Source of the DNA: Kiritimatiellia bacterium
Lineage (GTDB): Bacteria; Verrucomicrobiota; Kiritimatiellia; SLAD01
Assembly: GCA_007134735.1 (NCBI GenBank)
Contig: SLKG01000010.1
Location: forward strand, 1-40,741
DNA length: 40,741 nt
Direction of reading: 5' to 3'
Part shown: piece by piece, positions 8,051 through 40,741 of the stretch
Layout of the letters: the number at the start of each line of letters is the position of its first letter
Numbering within the stretch: the first letter of the stretch is position 1
Notes under the pieces: model-generated
What the model was told of the DNA's origin: nothing
The model's database searches: none
The model's input: the letters and a program-made list of their open reading frames with translations, nothing else
Position numbers and translations under genes: made by a program

Positions 8051-9277
8051 TCAGAGTTGTGCGAACAACGGTTCAATCCGTTCGACCGCTTGCGGCGCCG
8101 CCGCTCCGGGGTTGGGCACAAAGTCTTCCCGGAATGCGGCAATGGCCGCTTGATAAGGATTGCCGCTTAATAGTTGCGTTACCGTTTGCTCAAGCTCTTC
8201 CGGGGACACGATGATGGGTCCGATTCCGCCCCGATAACGGATCTCGGGATATTGGTCCAGGCCGCGCACATCCTGTCGGGGAACCTTGACCTTGTTCCCG
8301 AGGAACAGGATGGGCTTTCCCGTGGTCAGGACAAACTCAAAACCCAGCCCCGAACTATCGGTAATAAAAAGATCCGTTTCGGCAAACAGTCGTCCCAGGG
8401 ACTCCATGGATATGCGCTCCCCGATCAGTGTAATCGGGGCATGCTGGGCTCTATATTCCCGGATTCGACCGCGCCAGTCCACGCCTCCGGAATGCGAGGC
8501 CACGCGCTTGTGATATAGATACGGGTGCAACTTCAGCAGCAGACGATAACGTCTTCTCTTACACAATTCGACAAGCTCCGGAAGAAACTCAAACAACGAT
8601 GATGTGGTTGGGCTGTAGGTGGGACCGTAGAATAGGGTTGTGCCGGACGGAGGCAGCTTCGCGCAACGAAACCCCTCCATTACCGGGTCCAGTTTCGGAT
8701 ACCCCACCGCATAGGCTTTCTTTCCCTCCGTACCTTTGATATCGCCGGAATCAAACTGTTCCTTCAGAAAATAGGTCGGCATGAAGAACACGTCATACGG
8801 TTTGACATACGTTTCAACCGGCTTGGACGCGCCAAAAGACCCAAACCCGTGAAAGATCTGCACGCGACGTGTTCGCGGGAGGGCTTTATGTGGAAACGCG
8901 TCCGCCGCGATACATACCTTCCGGTCCAGGTAATCGGCGTAGGCTACCGGGAGTCCCTTGCGCCATAACGGGAGCGGGCGCCTGTGATTGGATTCAAAGC
9001 GAAACAGAAAAACGACGACGGCCCGGTTCTCCGCCTGCGCCAACCAGGCCTTGTAGATGGGCTCATAAAAAGAATCATACTGGCGAAGCCGGCAATCAAA
9101 AGCCAGGATGGGTTGCTTTCGAATTCGGAGGAACAGGAACCGGGGAAAGTACAGGGCCACCAGCACGGCATATCGCATCATGCGAAACGGAAACGCCGGG
9201 TCGGACAAATAGACTTTGGCCCGTGGATAGCGTGACGCCAGAAGTTGGAAGAGTTGTGTGGGGGTAGCCATTGTCAT
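8051..9277 (-). CDS. CDP-glycerol glycerophosphotransferase-like (TagB/TagF family) enzyme
   Basis: This 408-residue protein resembles the GT-B type polymerases and primases of teichoic acid synthesis. Visible blocks are RRVQIFHGFGSFG near 136, a YGPTYSPTTSS block near 217 (compare YxPTWR), LLLKLHP near 250 and the signature LFAETDLFITDSSGLGFEF near 300-318, followed by GKPILFL. The family transfers glycerol-phosphate or ribitol-phosphate from a CDP donor. A hydrophobic stretch around 33-50 may associate it with the membrane. With the adjacent nucleotidyltransferase it could add a phospho-alditol-type decoration to the polysaccharide, an inference from neighbours. The start is ATG 9277 or 9271, with a weak GAAG upstream. 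A hairpin-rich spacer lies just upstream, so a separate promoter is possible. Confidence 0.85.
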   Translation of the reverse strand: MTMATPTQLFQLLASRYPRAKVYLSDPAFPFRMMRYAVLVALYFPRFLFLRIRKQPILAFDCRLRQYDSFYEPIYKAWLAQAENRAVVVFLFRFESNHRRPLPLWRKGLPVAYADYLDRKVCIAADAFPHKALPRTRRVQIFHGFGSFGASKPVETYVKPYDVFFMPTYFLKEQFDSGDIKGTEGKKAYAVGYPKLDPVMEGFRCAKLPPSGTTLFYGPTYSPTTSSLFEFLPELVELCKRRRYRLLLKLHPYLYHKRVASHSGGVDWRGRIREYRAQHAPITLIGERISMESLGRLFAETDLFITDSSGLGFEFVLTTGKPILFLGNKVKVPRQDVRGLDQYPEIRYRGGIGPIIVSPEELEQTVTQLLSGNPYQAAIAAFREDFVPNPGAAAPQAVERIEPLFAQL

Positions 9278-9300
9278 TTTCGCTTCACTTCATGGTCTGC

Positions 9301-9320
9301 GGACGGCGGAGACGCCGTCC
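9301..9320. repeat. Perfect 8-bp stem hairpin
   Basis: Arms GGACGGCG and CGCCGTCC enclose the loop GAGA. It lies 24 bases upstream of the CDP-glycerol-transferase-like start and resembles the hairpins of the cluster at 9414-9564 in size. Confidence 0.7.
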
Positions 9321-9413
9321 CTGCCGGGCCTCATTCGCTTGTTCCCCCTCTTGGGATGGGAACCGTAGAAGAAAGTCCGTTCACAATTCCTTCCAGCCTC
9401 TCCGCGCGAAGAG

Positions 9414-9545
9414 CCTTGGAGTGCGGCACATGAGTGCCGCCTTGTTTTCGCGGCACGTACGTGCCGCGCAGGGAGCGCGTTGCACCATCTGCGGGGCACG
9501 ACCGTGCCCCGAAGCAAGGCGGTGCTATCGCACCGCACTCCAAGG
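9414..9545. repeat. Nested REP/BIME-like palindromic element of four units
   Basis: Four hairpin units lie head to tail in mirror order. Unit 1 (9414-9444) is CCTTGGAGTGCGGCAC, loop ATGA, then GTGCCGCCTTG. Unit 4 (9515-9545) is its near reverse complement with loop TATC. Unit 2 (9449-9468) is the perfect palindrome CGCGGCACGTACGTGCCGCG. Unit 3 (9493-9510) has arms GGGGCAC and GTGCCCC and, with its flanks, aligns to the reverse complement of unit 2. Stems are 7-8 bp and loops are 4 bases. Stem mismatches between paired units are compensated, so structure is kept where sequence differs. This is the arrangement of bacterial interspersed mosaic elements. Confidence 0.75.
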
Positions 9546-9564
9546 ATGCCGCTATCACGGCATC
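9545..9564. repeat. 7-bp stem hairpin joined to the REP-like cluster
   Basis: Arms GATGCCG and CGGCATC enclose the 6-base loop CTATCA. It shares its first base with the end of unit 4, so it is a fifth consecutive structure of the cluster. Confidence 0.6.
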
Positions 9565-9641
9565 GGGATAGATCGACTCTCGATACAGCCCCTGGGTCCC
9601 CCGTGCCCGGCAACAGGGAGAAGGTCTTGGACATGGCCATC

Positions 9642-10718
9642 TTACGCCCCGATCAGCGACCGATAGACCTGCAAAGTCTCCTCCGCGCACCGCGTCCATG
9701 AGAATTTCCGCGCTTGTACCACGCCGCGCTCCCGAAGATGTGTCCGCGCCCGGTCGTCCTTTGCCAACTCCGCCATGGCATTCAAATATGCTTCCGGTGT
9801 TTGTTCCACATAGCAGGCCGCGTCGCCTCCGACTTCGGGCAGACTGGCAACCCGCGAACAAATCACGGGACAGCCGACGGACATGGCTTCCAACACGGGC
9901 AACCCAAACCCCTCATAGCGGCTTGGAAACACCAACGCCAGGGCGCGGCGATAACAATAGAGGAGCACCTCGTCGGGTTGCCGGCCCAGATAGATCCAGT
10001 TCTTCGGCGGCGGACCCTCGCCGGGCACCCGGGCCCAACGGGCGCCGATGATGACGAGCGGGGGCAGTTCGACCCCGCGGCGCGCGGCCTGTTCGTAGGA
10101 CTCCCGGAGCAACGACAGGTTCTTGCCCGGTTCCAGGGAGCCCAGGAAAAAGAAGAAAGACTCCGGAATCGGCCGGTCGGGAGGTTTCGCCTCCATCGCG
10201 GACGCTTCTTCGGCAAAATCACTGCCCAGATAAACGACGTCTATCTTGTTTGGGTCGGCGTCGCGCAACTGGATCAATTCATCCGCAACAAAGCGGCTGA
10301 TACAGATCAGGCGGTTCGCCTGAAGGGCCCGGCGGGAATAGAGCCGGCTGCTGAATACATGCCATCGGCGGAACCGGTCCGGGTGTCGGAACACGGCGCA
10401 ATCATAGACGGTCTGCACCCACGGAAGCGCTTCGGGCGTGCGAAGAGGCAGACTGGTGGTCATGTGCAGAAGGTCGCATCCGGACCGTCTTAACAGGCGT
10501 GGCGCCACGAACGGCGCCCAGACCAACTCCCGGTAGGCGGTCTTCAGGGCGCGGCGCGGTTGCGCAAAATCCAGGTTTTCCACCGGCCATGCAAACTCGG
10601 AGACGGCAAGGTCCGCGGGATCCACCCGGCGCAAGCCCTTGAGCAAACCGCGAACATAGCGGGCGACCCCTGCGCTGGATGTATAGCACGCGTTGGTTTC
10701 GACGGTCAGCTTGATCAT
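9642..10718 (-). CDS. Glycosyltransferase family 4 (mannosyl/rhamnosyl-type GT-B)
   Basis: The protein of about 358 residues starts MIKLTVETNACYTSSAGVARY, matching the N-terminus of GT4 enzymes where the loop GVARY contacts substrate. The donor domain shows FFFLGSLEPGKNL, then a block reading YRRALALVFPSRYEGFG and LPVLEAMSVGCPVICS, which holds the EX7E-type motif. No signal peptide or membrane helix is present, so it acts at the inner face of the membrane. It likely adds one sugar of the repeat unit, with donor and linkage unknown. An in-frame ATG at 10760 would add 14 residues (MAAPCTGYG) that look unlike the family, so 10718 is preferred. It follows the Wzy-like gene after about 77 bases. 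Confidence 0.9.
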   Translation of the reverse strand: MIKLTVETNACYTSSAGVARYVRGLLKGLRRVDPADLAVSEFAWPVENLDFAQPRRALKTAYRELVWAPFVAPRLLRRSGCDLLHMTTSLPLRTPEALPWVQTVYDCAVFRHPDRFRRWHVFSSRLYSRRALQANRLICISRFVADELIQLRDADPNKIDVVYLGSDFAEEASAMEAKPPDRPIPESFFFFLGSLEPGKNLSLLRESYEQAARRGVELPPLVIIGARWARVPGEGPPPKNWIYLGRQPDEVLLYCYRRALALVFPSRYEGFGLPVLEAMSVGCPVICSRVASLPEVGGDAACYVEQTPEAYLNAMAELAKDDRARTHLRERGVVQARKFSWTRCAEETLQVYRSLIGA

Positions 10719-10795
10719 GGGACGAGGAGTTGATCCGTATCCGGTGCACGGCGCCGCCATGATGCACGGGATTCCGGTGGGTTATATCGCGCGCC

Positions 10796-29329: not shown

Positions 29330-29415
29330 AACACAGCGCTCCCGGAAAACAGGGAGACTCTAACAGGCATTGCGGTAGAGCACGAGCTCTCATTACGGGC
29401 TTTAACGCACGAAAT

Positions 29416-29468
29416 GACAGGCAAGAATGCCTGTCTTACACCCGTAAGACGGCCATTCTTGGCCGTCT
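29416..29468. repeat. Inverted pair of two perfect 8-bp hairpins
   Basis: GACAGGCA-AGAA-TGCCTGTC (29416-29435) is followed by AGACGGCC-ATTCTT-GGCCGTCT (29447-29468). The second, read on the other strand, repeats the CAAGAAT centre of the first, so they are a mirror pair of a REP-like type. They sit in the 188-bp spacer between the PorV-like and NERD genes. Confidence 0.65.
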
Positions 29469-29517
29469 CGATCATCGCCATGGCGTCAAAAGGACCATGA
29501 CCGGAGGCGGGGCTCCC

Positions 29518-33097: not shown

Positions 33098-33117
33098 GGG
33101 CCGCGCAAGCGCGGCCC
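33098..33117. repeat. Perfect 8-bp hairpin after the giant GH13/GH57-like gene
   Basis: GGGCCGCG-CAAG-CGCGGCCC lies 26 bases beyond the stop of the giant gene (minus strand). It could serve as a 3'-end structure, but no U-tract follows. Confidence 0.55.
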
Positions 33118-33142: not shown

Positions 33143-36100
33143 CTACTCCGGCAACCGCACATCTATCCGATAGAAGCGGCGATCGACGACGTCTGGAGGC
33201 GGATCGGTTTCCGACCCGTCATCCAACCATGCCTGTTCGTCGCCATCACCCTCAATGGCACTCTCATTTGCCTGCTCCCAATCCGGATCGATCAATGTGT
33301 CGTTCGCATACCAGATGTAATAATGCCGGTTCGTCGCACTCATGAACCGCACCCAGATTCCGTCTTCCGCAGATTCCACGTTGCTCACCTGAAAGAAGGC
33401 CTCCGGATCCGTCGGAACCAGCCCGGCAATATAGGCCTGCTTAAGTGAATTCACCTGATTCGAAGCCATGGTGGCGTTCACATCCACGGTTTCCGGATCA
33501 TACCCGTAATATTCCAACCAGGTATACGGTACGCCGTCGTTGAACAACTCAGCTTCCAACACCTCAAATCCAAGGCCGAAAGAGAACGATTCGCCCGTGG
33601 ATTCCAGTTCAACCTGATGCGTCTGGGCCTGGTTGCGCATGGTGACCGTCTGGAAGGGACCATCCTCGGCTTCCGCGTTGAAGGCCACGGCGGCATGTGA
33701 GTAATCCACAAAGGCCCGTATGACCATATCGTTTCCGGAATGCTTCAAACTCATTTCACCTGCCTGGGCCTCTTCTGAAAGCCCGCCCTGGCCACGCCTC
33801 AAGAGGTCGTGGAGGTCGGGGGACAGGCCATGGCGGATATAGAGGGTACCGCCGCCGTCCACATGATAATCGGCCTGGAACGTATCGCTGTCAGGGACCA
33901 GGGTAATGGTCTTGGTGATCTTCTCGTCGGAGGACTGGAGCTGCCAACCTTCCGCCACCGGCGTGACCGTGTAAAGGTCGTTGACATAACTCTGTGAACC
34001 GTCCCACCAGTCTTTGAATCCTGAAGTCCGGTGAGCACCCACATCGTCGCCTACGACATTGGATTCGCCTTCCCACTCCGTCTCGGATCCGGCAAAGGAG
34101 GCCAGGTTGCCGGCCACCTGCAGAATTCGGCCGCTGTCCGGATCGCGCGCAAACGCCGCGATCATGCGCCCTCCCATACGGGAGAAGATGCCGAGCAACC
34201 TGTTATTCCCCAGCAGGAATTCATCTTGGTCGCTGAGATTGACGTCGGCCTGGACCACCAGGGTCGTAGCCATGCCGGGAGCCGCGGCGGCCCATTGATC
34301 CACATGGGAATACAAGGCCGCCATGCGGGTCTGGGCCTGCGCGATCTTGGCAAACGAAGCCAGCGGACGCACGACATCCTCATCATCCGGGAACAGATAG
34401 TCGCCGGTACTGAATTTCCGCAGATCAACATAGGGCTGGTCATGAAATGCGGTCTGGAAGACCGAGGCGTGCATGACCGGTCGCGCCAGATCCCGCACGG
34501 AAGGATCTGATATCTGCAGGACCGCGTCCCAGGCATTGCTGACGATTCCGCCCGTGAACAGCATGCCGTAATGATCAGGCACGTCCACGCCGTCGCGAAT
34601 CTGGAATACCTTGTCGTGCAACCCTTCCCGCCGGCCGGGCTCGCCCAAATACCAGTTGTCATAGTTGCCTCGGGAAGCGAACTGAATCCAGTTGTTGGCC
34701 ATCTTGACCAGCTCGGGATCGAACCCTCGGTCGTGCTCCCAGAACGTGTCGCCGACACCGTCGCCAGAGAGATCCACTTCGCCGCGTGTAATGTCTTCCA
34801 AGGCGACCATTTCAACCCAGGGCCGGTTGGCGATCCAGCGGATCAACGCGTCGTAGGCGTCGGCGTTACCACTGTCGAGAAACTCTTCCCAGTGGCACAG
34901 AAGAATGACCACCTGGTCCTGGGAACCGCTCCGGGCCTTGCGATTGAAGATCTCCCGCAACTGCATGGGGGCGCCGGAATCGTGCACGCTGTACCGGAAA
35001 TCGTTGACCAGATTATTGATGGCAAAGGTGCCCACATCGTGGAAGCGGTTGATCTGGTATCCCGTATCGCTCAACGCGGGTGTGCGCCCCACCCAATGCC
35101 ACATGTGTTGGAGTTGGTCCACGACGGTGTAGCGGAAGCCCATGTCCTTGATCTTGTCGAAGACATCCGCGTCCAACAGCCGTTCCGGGGTCCAGAATAC
35201 CGCGGAATTGGTGTCGAACTCGACGCCATAGATGTCATAGAGGAACTGGTTGGCCAGTTCTACGTTGTCACGGTTAAATTCGTGGGTGAAATACGGCAAC
35301 ATGTGGTCGGAGAACGTGCTGGCCAGAAGATGAACCGTATTGGTTTCGATCAGACTGCGCAGACGCGCGTTGAACGCGGGACCATCGCGCCACGGCGCTT
35401 CTTCGGCGGGATCCACCTTGGCCCACTGGATGGCGGAGGCCAGCGTCGGGGTGATGTGCAGATTCAGCGGTTGACCAAACACTTCATGCGCGTCCAGCGG
35501 GCGATAGTAGCCGGCGCCTTCGTTATTGTTGATCAGGTCCTGAATCACGCTTCCGGGTTGAATGGCCTGGTTCGCGTGAATGATGGCGGCGACCTTCACC
35601 CGGCCGGGTTGGCTGTCGCCCGGAATCCATTGCGTCAACACGCTGCCGGACCCTTGCAGGCCGGCTTGGGCATTCCAATGGTCTTCCGCGATCCAGTCAT
35701 TCAGGATCGAATCGCGAATATCGCTGCGCCCACCGATGTCGCCGGGGCCTTGCGGATCGTTTCCGGTGCCGCTCTTGACGGAAAAGACCTGGTAGTTGAG
35801 ATTGGCGGAATCGGCCCCGAGCCAACCCGCTGTCAACAGCGCGTCGCGGTCAATGGCCACTTCCACGGCGTCGAGTTCGGAACTGAAATAGGCGCCCAGA
35901 TAGTATTCGCCCCGAGGAACCACGCCGCCATGGGTAAACAGGTCCTGACCGAAAACGTCCGTATTGTTTTCGGAGTCCTCATCCACATAGACCATGCCGA
36001 TGCCGGATTCGTAGATGGCCACGACCACCTTCCAGCGCATGTCGGTGAGGGTATCCACCTCATCGGGCAGCACGCGTTCGCCGCTGGGAGGATTCATGTC

Positions 36101-39100
36101 GCCGAAGTTGATGACGATGTAGTAGTCCACTTCCCCCTGCTCGGCGTAAGCCTGCAGATCATGAATGTCCAGACGGAAATAGAATCGCCCGTCGCCGCCC
36201 TGGGCCGGGGCGCCGCCGTCACGCGCATAGAACGCGACGAGGTCACGCGAATTGTCCCAGCCGTCCCAAGCCCGGTAGATGTCGCCGCCACGACGGTTGA
36301 AGCCCGCACCGTGATAGGGGTCCAGGGCCAGCAGATCCTCCCAGGTCCAGTCAATGAATTCGCGGTATCGGGTCACGTCGTCCACCACGCCCAGTTCGTC
36401 GCCCGGGCCGATGACGATACTGCCCGCCGGCGGAACGAACGTGACATCCAAGCGCGGATCGGTGCCGTTGAGGAAGTGGTCCATGTTCGTGACGCCGTCA
36501 CCGGTCAGGTCGCCGTCCGGACCGTTCAGCGGGTTACCCGGCTCGCCGGTGCGCCAGTTGTACACGCCGTCATCCAGCGGATCGAGTCCGTAGCGCACCT
36601 TCCAACCGTCGGGCAAACCGTCGCCGATGGTATCGATCACCAGCGGATCGGTTTCGGTGATGAGCAGGCGCGGCCAGCCGCCGGACTGCTCCGTGCCGGT
36701 GCCCTCGCGGTTATAGGCCGCGAAGAGCGCGTCGTAATGCACCGCGCGCGAAAGGATCGGCGCAAAGTCATAAGCTTCATTGTTGGGAATGAAATAAGGC
36801 CGGTTGTTGTTGTCCCAATAGATGATATCAAGATCGTCGGGCATCCGGTTGAACTGGAAGAAGTCGCCGTTCCAATCGGTATAGTCCACTTCCTGTGTCG
36901 TGCCGTTTGAGTGACGCAGATAGATGTTCACGCGTCCGTTTCTGCTCACATCCGCTTGGCCGTCCATCAACCCGTCGCCAATGGTGTCGGGATTGTTCGG
37001 ATCGGTTTCGAGAAAGATGGCGTTGGGCGGCAAACGGCCGCGATCCACCCGTGACGAGTTATAGACCGTGGGGATGTTGGGATGCATCAGGATGCTTTCC
37101 ACCTTGCCGTCCAACCCCAACAAGCCGATGTCTACGCGTCCATTACGGTTCAGGTCCTCTTCGGAATCGCGCAGACCGTCTCCGTCCGTGTCCGGACGGG
37201 TCGGATCGGTCATGGAACCGGTGATCTGATCCGTGCGTCCAGCGAATTCCCGGAAGTCGGGATGACCCGAGTTATCCGGTTTGGTGTTGAACAGGGGTGG
37301 GTCAAGATCGGGAATGAAATTCTTATACCCGTCCGCGTTGGTGTCGACCGTAATATCCGTAGCGTTGGTGTCGATCGGGCCGACCAGACCCGACTGCAGG
37401 CCATCCGGCAGGCCGCCGCCATCGGTGTTCGGCATCAACGGATCGGTCCGCCCGGTGATCCGCCACATATGCACCTCGCCGCTGGTCCAGAAATCGCTGT
37501 CCACCTCCGGCAGATCGGACTGGGTGACCTCCATATGATCCGGAATCCCGTCGTCGTCTGAATCACCGCTGTCATCCTGGTCAACGATCTGGCGAAGCAC
37601 CACGGGGATGCTGCGCATATTGCTATGCGAGATCTCGTTGGTATTGGGCGCATTGGTGTTGCCATGGGCAAAGAACACAAAGGTGCCCGCCGTCATGTTG
37701 GTCCAGTTAAAGGTCCAGACAATGTCGCTCCCGTTGGTCACGGGCCCACTGATGTAGTCCGCCTGGCCGCGACCGCCCTCAAACTCGATCCATACATGCT
37801 GATACTCGGGAGCCGCCGTCACCAGAATCGTGTATTGCCGGTCTTCCGGATCGGGATCCGGCACGTCAGGCAATACAATGACGGTCTGCCGGCCATTGGA
37901 ATCGAACTGTTCGGGCCGCGTCACAATGAGCGTCGGCGGCAACGGGGTTTCCTGCGCCCGAACCTGGCGATACGCCGTCAGGTTAATCCCGTCATGCGAA
38001 TACTGCACCTCGATCTGGTGCAGATAATCCGGATCGCCGTTGAAAAGGTTCGGCAGATCAAAGGCCAGCGCGTGGTAATCGGGGGTTTCGTCATAAACGA
38101 TATCGTATTCGTCCTTGCTTTGCGCGGCGCCGTTGATGCGGATCGTGAACCGGTCAATGAGCTGTTCCGTGGTGGTGCCATCGGCCAGCGACTTGGTGAA
38201 ATTGGCTTTCATACCGTAGCCTTCGCCTACGGTATCACCGTCGTTTTGCGGCCAGGCCACAAAGAGCTCTTGCACCGGGCCGCGTGTCCGCACTTCGCGT
38301 TCCAGCGTCGTGAAATGCCCGTCCTCATCGCTCATTTCATCCGTCCACTCTTCTTGCGGCGTGGAACTGAGTTCCACCAGGCGAACATGGATCGTGGCGT
38401 CGCCCGATGACGGTATATTACGGTAGGTAAAACGCCACTCATCGGGGTAATCGCTCTCGATATCAAGACTGGGCACCACCCGGCTGGCCTGCACCCAGGA
38501 TGTCTGCCCCAGTTCATTCGTGCCGTTCCCATTCAGCACGCCGGTCTGCCCGTCGTCGTTTCCGGGATCGCCGTCTTCGATGTTGAACCACACCTCGGTT
38601 ACAGTGGGATCGGTGCGCACGACCACGCCGTATTCGCGCGAAGGCAATTGATCGTCGTCCGCGGGGAATTTGACTTCGCCGGTCGGCCGTTCGAGGTCGA
38701 GATAGAACGTCTGCTTGAACGTGTTGAAGATCGGGGCTTCGCTGTCCCGCTGCAGAAACGCGCGAACCTGGATGAAGTTCATGCCTTCCTGCAAACCGGT
38801 CTCCATGATCGGATTGCCTTCCAGATCCTGCGCATAATCGTTATGCGGAAAATATTCGATGGTTTCGGCGTTGAAATTGGTGATCTGCCACACGCCCATC
38901 ATTTCGTACTTGCGATCCACCTGATCGGGATGATTAGGGAACGGGACATCCCAAGCTTCTTCATTGTAGCCTTGAACCCGGGCGGCGCCGATCTTGTAGC
39001 GCAACAGGGTGTCATTGGCCGGGCGCGGAAACTCGAAACGCCACCAGTCAGTGTCGCCTTCGACGCCGGTATGGACCCATGTACCGGAAGCCACCCGGGT

Positions 39101-40741
39101 GGCGGCATTCGCGCCATAACCGGCTGCGCCTTCCGGCCAATCGTCGCCACCGGTTGTCGTGTAGTATAGCGACGCCATGATCCCTTCAACCTTCGGCGTT
39201 TTAACCCAGACTACGATGGAGGTTGAGGTCTTGTAGTACTGGTTGGTCACACCGCCGTTATTGTTGTCGGTTAAGGCGGCCGGATCATGATAGACCCAGG
39301 AGAGTCGATGATGGTCACCAGAAAAGTCGTTCGCGGCATCGGCTTCGAGAACGTCCACGGTCCCGGACCCGATCAAGGTCTGGTAGCTGGTGGCCCCCGC
39401 TGAACCGACCTTGTTGGAATCCGTATTGCGCGCGGCGAATTTTTCCGCCCAGATGCGCTTGTCAAACCTCGTATCCTCCCAACCCAGAAACGTGTCGTTC
39501 GCATTCCCCGGCGAGCGATCGCGATTGCCCCAGTTTTCCGCGCCCATGCCCAGATGATGGTTCAGGTCTACGCCGCCGTTGAGCTTCATCAGCACATTGT
39601 AGGCGGACCCGTCTACATGCGCGCGGAACGTCAAATTGGTGCCGCACGTGACGCGGGGCACGGTCATGCGATAGCGGAACGGATTCTCGTCGGCGTCCTC
39701 CTGCGAATCGAATCCGCGATATGGCAATCCAAGCGGATTGAATTGCGAATCACCGTCCGGACCGTCGCGGCGCAGATAGCTGACCGTGCCCGGCCATTCG
39801 TTGTTCTGCCGGATCTCGATGGGATTCCCGCCGCCCCATTTCCAGAGATCCGATTCCTCCGGGGACCGCCAAGAAAAGGCAAAATAACCGCCGGGGGGGA
39901 TCGTGATTTCGCCGTTGGCAATTTGCGAGGCCCAGACATAGAATGGACCGCCGTAGGTCGAATAGTTCATCAACCAGGAATCATCTACGCCCGAGGTGTG
40001 CCCAAAGACCGGGTTGATATTGCGGTTCTGCCCGTCGGCATAATTATCGTTCATCATGAACAACAGGACGGCAGCGGACCGGTCGTCCATCCCATCGTTC
40101 ACGCCCCAGCCCTCGTCTCGTTTGTCCACGCGGGCGTAGGCGACCACATCGTTGTCACTCCACCACCCATATTGGTAGCCACGCGCAAAATGCTCGTGGA
40201 TATAGGCCAAATTCGGCAGTCGCTGATCGCCGAATTGACCGAGGAAGGCGGTGTTGGCATGGCGTGGAAACGCGCCGCCCGCATCTTGAAGCGTACCGGA
40301 CTTGAAATAGCCGTCGGTATACACAATCGGAAGACCGGCGCGTGTCATATAGAATGCGTATTGCAATTCCCGCGCGGCCGCGTAATCGCTGTCGTGGCTG
40401 TGCGCAAATTGCACGCCCACCTGGTGTCCATTGCCCGCAAAGTCCGGGTGCGGGTTCCATCCTGTCTGGTCCAGATCATTGAGATCCCCCCACGGTGAAC
40501 CCAGAATCCCGTTCAAATGATCCCTCAGGGGCGCGTCTTTCAGGCGCATGCCCGTGGCAATATACTGGCCGAATCCGGGGGGCGCCCCGAGATGCTCGCC
40601 GAAAACCATGGCATCGTTGCGCGGTTTTTCCGTGTCGAACACCGTTTCACGGAAATTGGGATGTTCGCCGAGCTGCTGATTGAAGCCCCGTGTCTTGTTG
40701 AATTGCAATTGCATCCCGCCGATATAACCCGCCGTGCTGGC
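33143..40741 (-). CDS. Giant amylolytic protein with GH13-like, TSP3, glucodextranase-C-like and GH57-like regions, 5' end cut by the window
   Basis: The frame is open to the right edge, so at least 2532 residues are visible and the N-terminus is missing. Counting from the edge, residues 1-290 look like the end of an alpha-amylase (GH13) barrel with FAHSHDSDYAAARELQ near 112 and AGLPIVYTDGYF. Beta-sandwich regions follow. TSP3/EF-like calcium repeats (about 1050-1430) include DSDDDGIPD, DTDGDGLRD and DLTGDGVTN. A glucodextranase-C-like region (about 1435-1645) is next. A GH57-like region (about 1710-1990) has AVFWTPERLLD near 1847, comparable with the GH57 nucleophile motif, and HWEEFLDSGNADAYDAL. 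The C-terminus ends in a beta domain with RRFYRIDVRLPE. It is probably exported and acts on alpha-glucans. Confidence 0.88.
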   Translation of the reverse strand, partial: ASTAGYIGGMQLQFNKTRGFNQQLGEHPNFRETVFDTEKPRNDAMVFGEHLGAPPGFGQYIATGMRLKDAPLRDHLNGILGSPWGDLNDLDQTGWNPHPDFAGNGHQVGVQFAHSHDSDYAAARELQYAFYMTRAGLPIVYTDGYFKSGTLQDAGGAFPRHANTAFLGQFGDQRLPNLAYIHEHFARGYQYGWWSDNDVVAYARVDKRDEGWGVNDGMDDRSAAVLLFMMNDNYADGQNRNINPVFGHTSGVDDSWLMNYSTYGGPFYVWASQIANGEITIPPGGYFAFSWRSPEESDLWKWGGGNPIEIRQNNEWPGTVSYLRRDGPDGDSQFNPLGLPYRGFDSQEDADENPFRYRMTVPRVTCGTNLTFRAHVDGSAYNVLMKLNGGVDLNHHLGMGAENWGNRDRSPGNANDTFLGWEDTRFDKRIWAEKFAARNTDSNKVGSAGATSYQTLIGSGTVDVLEADAANDFSGDHHRLSWVYHDPAALTDNNNGGVTNQYYKTSTSIVVWVKTPKVEGIMASLYYTTTGGDDWPEGAAGYGANAATRVASGTWVHTGVEGDTDWWRFEFPRPANDTLLRYKIGAARVQGYNEEAWDVPFPNHPDQVDRKYEMMGVWQITNFNAETIEYFPHNDYAQDLEGNPIMETGLQEGMNFIQVRAFLQRDSEAPIFNTFKQTFYLDLERPTGEVKFPADDDQLPSREYGVVVRTDPTVTEVWFNIEDGDPGNDDGQTGVLNGNGTNELGQTSWVQASRVVPSLDIESDYPDEWRFTYRNIPSSGDATIHVRLVELSSTPQEEWTDEMSDEDGHFTTLEREVRTRGPVQELFVAWPQNDGDTVGEGYGMKANFTKSLADGTTTEQLIDRFTIRINGAAQSKDEYDIVYDETPDYHALAFDLPNLFNGDPDYLHQIEVQYSHDGINLTAYRQVRAQETPLPPTLIVTRPEQFDSNGRQTVIVLPDVPDPDPEDRQYTILVTAAPEYQHVWIEFEGGRGQADYISGPVTNGSDIVWTFNWTNMTAGTFVFFAHGNTNAPNTNEISHSNMRSIPVVLRQIVDQDDSGDSDDDGIPDHMEVTQSDLPEVDSDFWTSGEVHMWRITGRTDPLMPNTDGGGLPDGLQSGLVGPIDTNATDITVDTNADGYKNFIPDLDPPLFNTKPDNSGHPDFREFAGRTDQITGSMTDPTRPDTDGDGLRDSEEDLNRNGRVDIGLLGLDGKVESILMHPNIPTVYNSSRVDRGRLPPNAIFLETDPNNPDTIGDGLMDGQADVSRNGRVNIYLRHSNGTTQEVDYTDWNGDFFQFNRMPDDLDIIYWDNNNRPYFIPNNEAYDFAPILSRAVHYDALFAAYNREGTGTEQSGGWPRLLITETDPLVIDTIGDGLPDGWKVRYGLDPLDDGVYNWRTGEPGNPLNGPDGDLTGDGVTNMDHFLNGTDPRLDVTFVPPAGSIVIGPGDELGVVDDVTRYREFIDWTWEDLLALDPYHGAGFNRRGGDIYRAWDGWDNSRDLVAFYARDGGAPAQGGDGRFYFRLDIHDLQAYAEQGEVDYYIVINFGDMNPPSGERVLPDEVDTLTDMRWKVVVAIYESGIGMVYVDEDSENNTDVFGQDLFTHGGVVPRGEYYLGAYFSSELDAVEVAIDRDALLTAGWLGADSANLNYQVFSVKSGTGNDPQGPGDIGGRSDIRDSILNDWIAEDHWNAQAGLQGSGSVLTQWIPGDSQPGRVKVAAIIHANQAIQPGSVIQDLINNNEGAGYYRPLDAHEVFGQPLNLHITPTLASAIQWAKVDPAEEAPWRDGPAFNARLRSLIETNTVHLLASTFSDHMLPYFTHEFNRDNVELANQFLYDIYGVEFDTNSAVFWTPERLLDADVFDKIKDMGFRYTVVDQLQHMWHWVGRTPALSDTGYQINRFHDVGTFAINNLVNDFRYSVHDSGAPMQLREIFNRKARSGSQDQVVILLCHWEEFLDSGNADAYDALIRWIANRPWVEMVALEDITRGEVDLSGDGVGDTFWEHDRGFDPELVKMANNWIQFASRGNYDNWYLGEPGRREGLHDKVFQIRDGVDVPDHYGMLFTGGIVSNAWDAVLQISDPSVRDLARPVMHASVFQTAFHDQPYVDLRKFSTGDYLFPDDEDVVRPLASFAKIAQAQTRMAALYSHVDQWAAAAPGMATTLVVQADVNLSDQDEFLLGNNRLLGIFSRMGGRMIAAFARDPDSGRILQVAGNLASFAGSETEWEGESNVVGDDVGAHRTSGFKDWWDGSQSYVNDLYTVTPVAEGWQLQSSDEKITKTITLVPDSDTFQADYHVDGGGTLYIRHGLSPDLHDLLRRGQGGLSEEAQAGEMSLKHSGNDMVIRAFVDYSHAAVAFNAEAEDGPFQTVTMRNQAQTHQVELESTGESFSFGLGFEVLEAELFNDGVPYTWLEYYGYDPETVDVNATMASNQVNSLKQAYIAGLVPTDPEAFFQVSNVESAEDGIWVRFMSATNRHYYIWYANDTLIDPDWEQANESAIEGDGDEQAWLDDGSETDPPPDVVDRRFYRIDVRLPE

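Follow-up and report, generated by a model that had tools for sequence, protein, structure and literature searches.

A hairpin cluster between two glycan genes of a Kiritimatiellia bacterium as a probable REPIN/BIME copy with a GGA[GC]T tag and a cognate RAYT

The window analysed here, a stretch of 40,741 nucleotides from a Kiritimatiellia bacterium (assembly GCA_007134735.1, contig SLKG01000010.1), contains a group of glycan genes, two of which are separated by an intergenic spacer of 364 bp (positions 9278-9641, from the ORF list and gap table). Upstream of the spacer is a gene for a glycosyltransferase (9642-10760, minus strand; Pfam Glycos_transf_1, 3.6e-21) and downstream a gene for a CDP-glycerol glycerophosphotransferase-like protein (8051-9277, minus strand; Pfam Glyphos_transf, 7.9e-07). 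The spacer is the longest among these glycan genes, most neighbouring gaps being below about 60 bp. Elsewhere in the window, positions 33143-40714 of the minus strand form a single open frame of 2523 amino acids. Positions 9301-9564 contain six stems that are perfect over 7 bp or more, at 9301-9320, 9423-9440, 9449-9468, 9492-9511, 9519-9536 and 9545-9564, and this is the hairpin-densest spot within the window; when the stretch was shuffled 1000 times with its dinucleotides preserved, such stems numbered 0.19 on average and 2 at most, so that six was never reached. The cluster of six hairpins described in an earlier note on this DNA is therefore real, but only five of them (about 9403-9564) form a single composite element, which occupies less than half of the spacer. 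The hairpin at 9301-9320 is unique and unrelated and lies outside the element, in the 5' leader of the gene at 8051-9277; considered as a member of the cluster, it showed no significant copies in its own genome and its exact pattern was found in 0 of 55 relatives.

In the composite element two inverted REP units enclose two mirrored inner hairpins, together with a recurrent flanking hairpin, and on the plus strand the order of the modules is REP unit, inner hairpin CGCGGCACGTACGTGCCGCG, inner hairpin CGGGGCACGACCGTGCCCCG, inverted REP unit and flanking hairpin. The whole element spans 9403-9564, the left edge being approximate (the CGCGCGAAGAG flank), and the same order of modules is found at C112:5887-6081. 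REP unit 1 (9414-9443, plus strand; 58.8 bits and E 2.8e-11 with the covariance model R1) consists of CCTT, the tag GGAGT (9418-9422), the stem-loop GCGGCAC-ATGA-GTGCCGC (9423-9440) and the tail CTT. It is followed by inner hairpin A (9449-9468), a perfect 10-bp palindrome, CGCGGCACG-TA-CGTGCCGCG, with similar inner hairpins in the copies on C112 and C26, and by inner hairpin B (9492-9511), which alignment with the reversed A identifies as its mirror with compensated stem changes. REP unit 2 is inverted (9516-9545, minus strand; R1 56.3 bits, E 1.1e-10), with its stem-loop, of stem GCGGTGC/GCACCGC, at 9519-9536 and its GGAGT tag at 9537-9541, and it is adjoined by the flanking hairpin GATGCCG..CGGCATC (9545-9564), which recurs beside units on C112, C15 and C40. 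The outer arms, 9414-9447 and 9512-9545, are 76% complementary, and the inner hairpins are homologous as a mirror pair (CTTG.TTCGnGGCACG..CGTGCCnCGCAG); for the outer and for the inner pair alike, 0 of 2000 shuffles gave as good a mirror score. Differences between partners are compensated in the stems, GCGGCAC/GTGCCGC becoming GCGGTGC/GCACCGC and CGCGG/CCGCG becoming CGGGG/CCCCG. The data thus uphold both the mirror arrangement of four hairpins and the compensated base changes that the earlier note had read from this region.

A census of the genome, based on a covariance model, on BLAST and on searches by pattern, which may overlook diverged copies, showed that the unit is dispersed at unrelated loci. 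The covariance model of the 42-base unit gave 19 matches at E below 0.1, but one locus was counted twice, since the ends of contigs C26 and C57 share about 120 identical bases where a repeat copy lies, and the matches thus represent 18 distinct units. Fourteen of the 18 are arranged in seven plus/minus pairs (REPINs), with tags pointing outward and starts 80-132 bp apart. By BLAST, the composite recurs at C112:5887-6081, where 165 bp align at 72% identity, and partial copies, several of them at contig ends, are found on C15, C26, C57 and C164. The extragenic position was checked for the window copy. Where BLAST aligned them, the copies in this genome are about 72-90% identical to the window copy, and because of this divergence we make no claim of recent mobility. 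Compensation extends to the other copies: in 24 distinct copies 99.4% of the stem pairs are paired, and 13 cells are changed on both sides compared with 2.2 in shuffles, a count that leans towards structure because the alignment was fitted to it. In an independent check near RAYT genes, where instances were picked by the motif TGGA[GC]TGCG alone, 113 of 266 contained, within 50 bases, an inverted repeat of 7 bases without mismatch, with 14 different arms, compared with 12.9 when arms were shuffled among instances.

The Y1 transposase family has 12 matches in the genome, some of which are pieces of one gene. Among the genes found, P0001 (C40:969-1532, 187 amino acids) is an intact RAYT gene bracketed by REPINs at C40:778-896 and C40:1565-1683. 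Its sole NCBIfam match is NF047646, the family of REP-associated tyrosine transposases (RAYTs) (E 1e-20; 74.1 bits against a curated cut-off of 80), and it scores 20.9 bits in Pfam against a cut-off of 23; the GTAG-type RAYTs of the same genome are also under the NCBIfam cut-off, and all 14 members of the P0001 family match NF047646. A search with the family profile finds the crystal structure of E. coli TnpA-REP, 4ER8, at E 2.3e-10. P0001 has an intact HUH motif, H69-Y-H71, and a single catalytic tyrosine within Y...N[PA]; the motif, Y134 and N138 are invariant in the 14 aligned members, and NHYH occurs in 80 of 80 named relatives, a figure partly built into the scan pattern. The closest named relatives found belong to Verrucomicrobiota. 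In other genomes similar tagged units flank the RAYT orthologues in most cases examined, and the repeats of one Kiritimatiellae relative match those of family member G002. The REP-type copying that the earlier note had suggested is supported by about 18 distinct copies, by the compensated stem changes and by a cognate RAYT between repeat copies; neither of the two results that the note had named as refuting it, a lack of further copies and uncompensated stem changes in them, was observed. A short, non-coding element with inverted ends could also be a MITE, a non-autonomous remnant that derives from a conventional insertion sequence, has terminal inverted repeats and is moved by a DDE or IS200/IS605 transposase, but here each end is a hairpin bearing a fixed tag, units are also found singly and in mixed arrays, and the sole enzyme found with element ends on its flanks is a single-copy RAYT and not a set of near-identical IS transposase copies. 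We regard a MITE origin as extremely improbable.

In the REPs known to be linked to RAYTs, the foot of the hairpin has GT[AG]G (PMC2817692, PMC3733652, PMC6006769), with the exceptions of class 3, where the foot is CnGA (PMC6006769), and of subclass 2.6, where it is atypical. In the element studied here the foot is GGAGT or GGACT instead of the GT[AG]G used to define REPs, and we therefore class it as a REP variant. This tag is a property of the whole clade: TGGA[GC]TGCG lies within 700 bp at 74 of 80 named loci of P0001 relatives against 4 of 80 in a reversed control, and with a slightly looser motif tag plus hairpin are found at 77 of 80 against 4. The density of the motif is 279 in 106 kb near the RAYT compared with 26 in 305 kb further away. 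Among the foot 5-mers of 400 hairpin strands around the 80 relatives, GGAGT (99) and GGACT (37) are the commonest, with GTAG and GTGG at 2 each; hairpins survive reversal, which makes reversed sequence unsuited as a control for this ranking, and the survey serves only for the GGAGT and GGACT counts. The tag can be read as GGA[GC]T that directly abuts the 5' side of the stem, or as GGA[GC] separated from it by one base. Some hairpins are short, with a 7-bp stem and a loop of 3-4 bases, and others are long. A long repeat form with an inner second stem (GCGCCGGCAGAGCG..CGGCGACGGCGC) was observed on the RAYT flanks of L120, L124, L148, L181 and others, in many Verrucomicrobiota and Acidobacteria, and is possibly the equivalent of the long REPs described in the literature. 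An oddity of the whole genome is ruled out, because the RAYTs on C123 and C116 carry canonical GTAG hairpins on their flanks. The window itself holds a canonical GTAG-type REP at 33098-33117 on the minus strand (GTAG-GGGCCGCGC; matched 10 times in the genome, with three matches around the C123 RAYT) and, at 29405-29480, a two-hairpin repeat with 12 genome matches that resembles the repeats around the C116 RAYT. In the REP literature searched, largely the main texts of openly accessible papers, we found no description of a GGA[GC]T tag.

RAYT and repeat also occur together across genomes. Across the phylum, 115 genomes were compared, and five or more tagged repeats were present in 11 of the 13 with the RAYT and in 3 of the 102 without it (Fisher p = 3.8e-11); the association is weaker yet present in 58 relatives (p = 4.5e-4). 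Some genomes have many repeats without a detected RAYT of the P0001 clade (G007, 74; G064, 35; G041, 14; G009, 12), possibly through loss, incomplete assembly or another mobiliser. G007, a member of the same family (L203-L207), has no fewer than 74 tagged units, which often form closely spaced inverted pairs and carry a second TTTGGACT at their tail; no RAYT of this clade was found there. In another genome, G020, repeat matches recur every 11,510-11,511 bp at both ends of the 3.1-Mb contig C1 (L210), a pattern that probably reflects redundant contig termini or a tandem artefact of the assembly. Repeat-rich genomes of the G007 kind would suit a DNA-level site, for a nucleoid protein, gyrase or recombination, to which the RAYT association is secondary, as would the binding of gyrase and IHF by enterobacterial REP elements; the strong linkage to and co-occurrence with one RAYT clade, however, fit dispersal by the RAYT better, and we consider such a site very unlikely to be the explanation.

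The fold of the element is very stable (z about -6.5), and equally strong on both strands, no more than is expected of any such repeat. This stability, and the position between two glycan genes of the same direction whose spacer is unusually long, could be read as a cis-acting RNA element of the operon, namely an mRNA stabiliser, attenuator or processing site whose fold is under selection and which is not mobile, yet the opposite strand folds just as strongly, the REP unit recurs at unrelated genomic loci and, in different phyla, next to RAYT genes, the element matches no Rfam family, and a search for intrinsic terminators gave none on the operon strand and a single candidate on the opposite one. 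An RNA element of this kind is, in our view, unlikely. No tRNA was found at the element, and a search of 28 relatives for an orthologue of the downstream gene, for an empty-site comparison, gave no match at E 1e-15. Within the glycan operon the element is most likely a passenger insertion; it may possibly affect the transcript, or the expression ratio that the earlier note had proposed, and an effect on mRNA stability would be plausible by likeness to enterobacterial REPs.

In light of these data, we think it very likely that the cluster is one copy of a non-autonomous REPIN/BIME that was spread in this genome by the RAYT encoded on C40. We infer that the element moves, or once moved, by way of this RAYT, because of its approximately 18 copies, the seven pairs with outward tags, the compensated stems and the RAYT with elements on both sides; its cleavage, its mobility and the use of the tag as a guide are part of this inference. 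In the element, two inverted REP hairpins with outward 5' tags enclose the second, inner mirrored pair. The RAYT is a single-strand endonuclease of the HUH type with one catalytic tyrosine, and its own gene has the same REPINs on either side. In the proposed mechanism, modelled on E. coli TnpA-REP, what it recognises would be the element in the form of folded single strands, each with tag and hairpin; it would then cut beside the hairpins and join the DNA again at another place.

The element is thus of a known kind, and its non-standard tag is consistent across many bacteria. The REPINs/BIMEs of E. coli and Pseudomonas fluorescens SBW25, with their RAYT (TnpA-REP), share the short GC-rich hairpins, the conserved 5' tag, the inverted pairs, the clusters and the dispersed distribution beside a single-copy RAYT (PMC3116915, PMC2817692), but they number hundreds of copies with GT[AG]G, compared with about 18 distinct units and GGA[GC]T here. 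Tagged palindromes found singly, as dimers or in clusters are also typical of the GTAG and CGTC superfamilies, which extend to Verrucomicrobia (O. terrae, GTAG; PMC3733652); the window element has neither tag, whereas true GTAG REPs coexist beside the C123 and C116 RAYTs. Among RAYT classes, subclass 2.8 (Cyanobacteria; NHYH, W[YH], YIHYNP; PMC6006769) resembles P0001 in NHYH, in W[HY] near the guide-binding loop, in the Y...N motif and in a proline-containing N-terminus. It is reported to have long canonical GT[AG]G REPs, unlike the P0001 clade with its GGA[GC]T REPs and YVHQN[PA], and this comparison is one of motifs and not of a tree. Class 3 TnpA-Y1 (Planctomycetes, Acidobacteria; PMC6006769) has in common a non-GTAG foot, CnGA, many dispersed hairpins and overlapping host phyla, but it has a Y----Q motif (YV[VI].EQ) where P0001 has Y---N, and its tag sequence is another.

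The residues that contact the GTAG guide in the E. coli enzyme are W94, Q95, E100, H101 and R104 (PMC6006769). The P0001 clade keeps W94 and E/D100, while position 95 is H or F, position 101 is T (73 of 75) and position 104 is T or S (72 of 75); the first of these three is partly fixed by the search pattern, and positions 101 and 104 are free of it. The GTAG RAYT on C123 of the same genome keeps W, Q, E, H and R. These data lead us to favour, with some reservation, the view that a widespread RAYT clade of Verrucomicrobiota and neighbouring phyla has exchanged the guide GT[AG]G for GGA[GC]T, and that Q95, H101 and R104 were replaced along with it. Under a published guide rule, in which GTAG leads to CT and GTAC to GT (PMC8266576), GGAG one base away from the stem would be expected to direct cutting at CT and GGAC at GT; if the guide lies right at the foot, as GAGT or GACT, the expected sites would be AC and AG.

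For the window, the hairpins are, for now, better read as a mobile repeat than as an operon regulator. REP/RAYT systems are common, and in the accessible literature on them the tags are GT[AG]G almost throughout. What sets the choice of repeat by a RAYT is only partly known, and a large clade with another fixed tag and matching residue changes offers a ready comparison, for which the two other RAYTs of this genome, with their canonical GTAG repeats, are internal controls. If the proposed change of guide is true, it would be a natural switch of specificity, informative on guide recognition and on the choice of the cleavage site.
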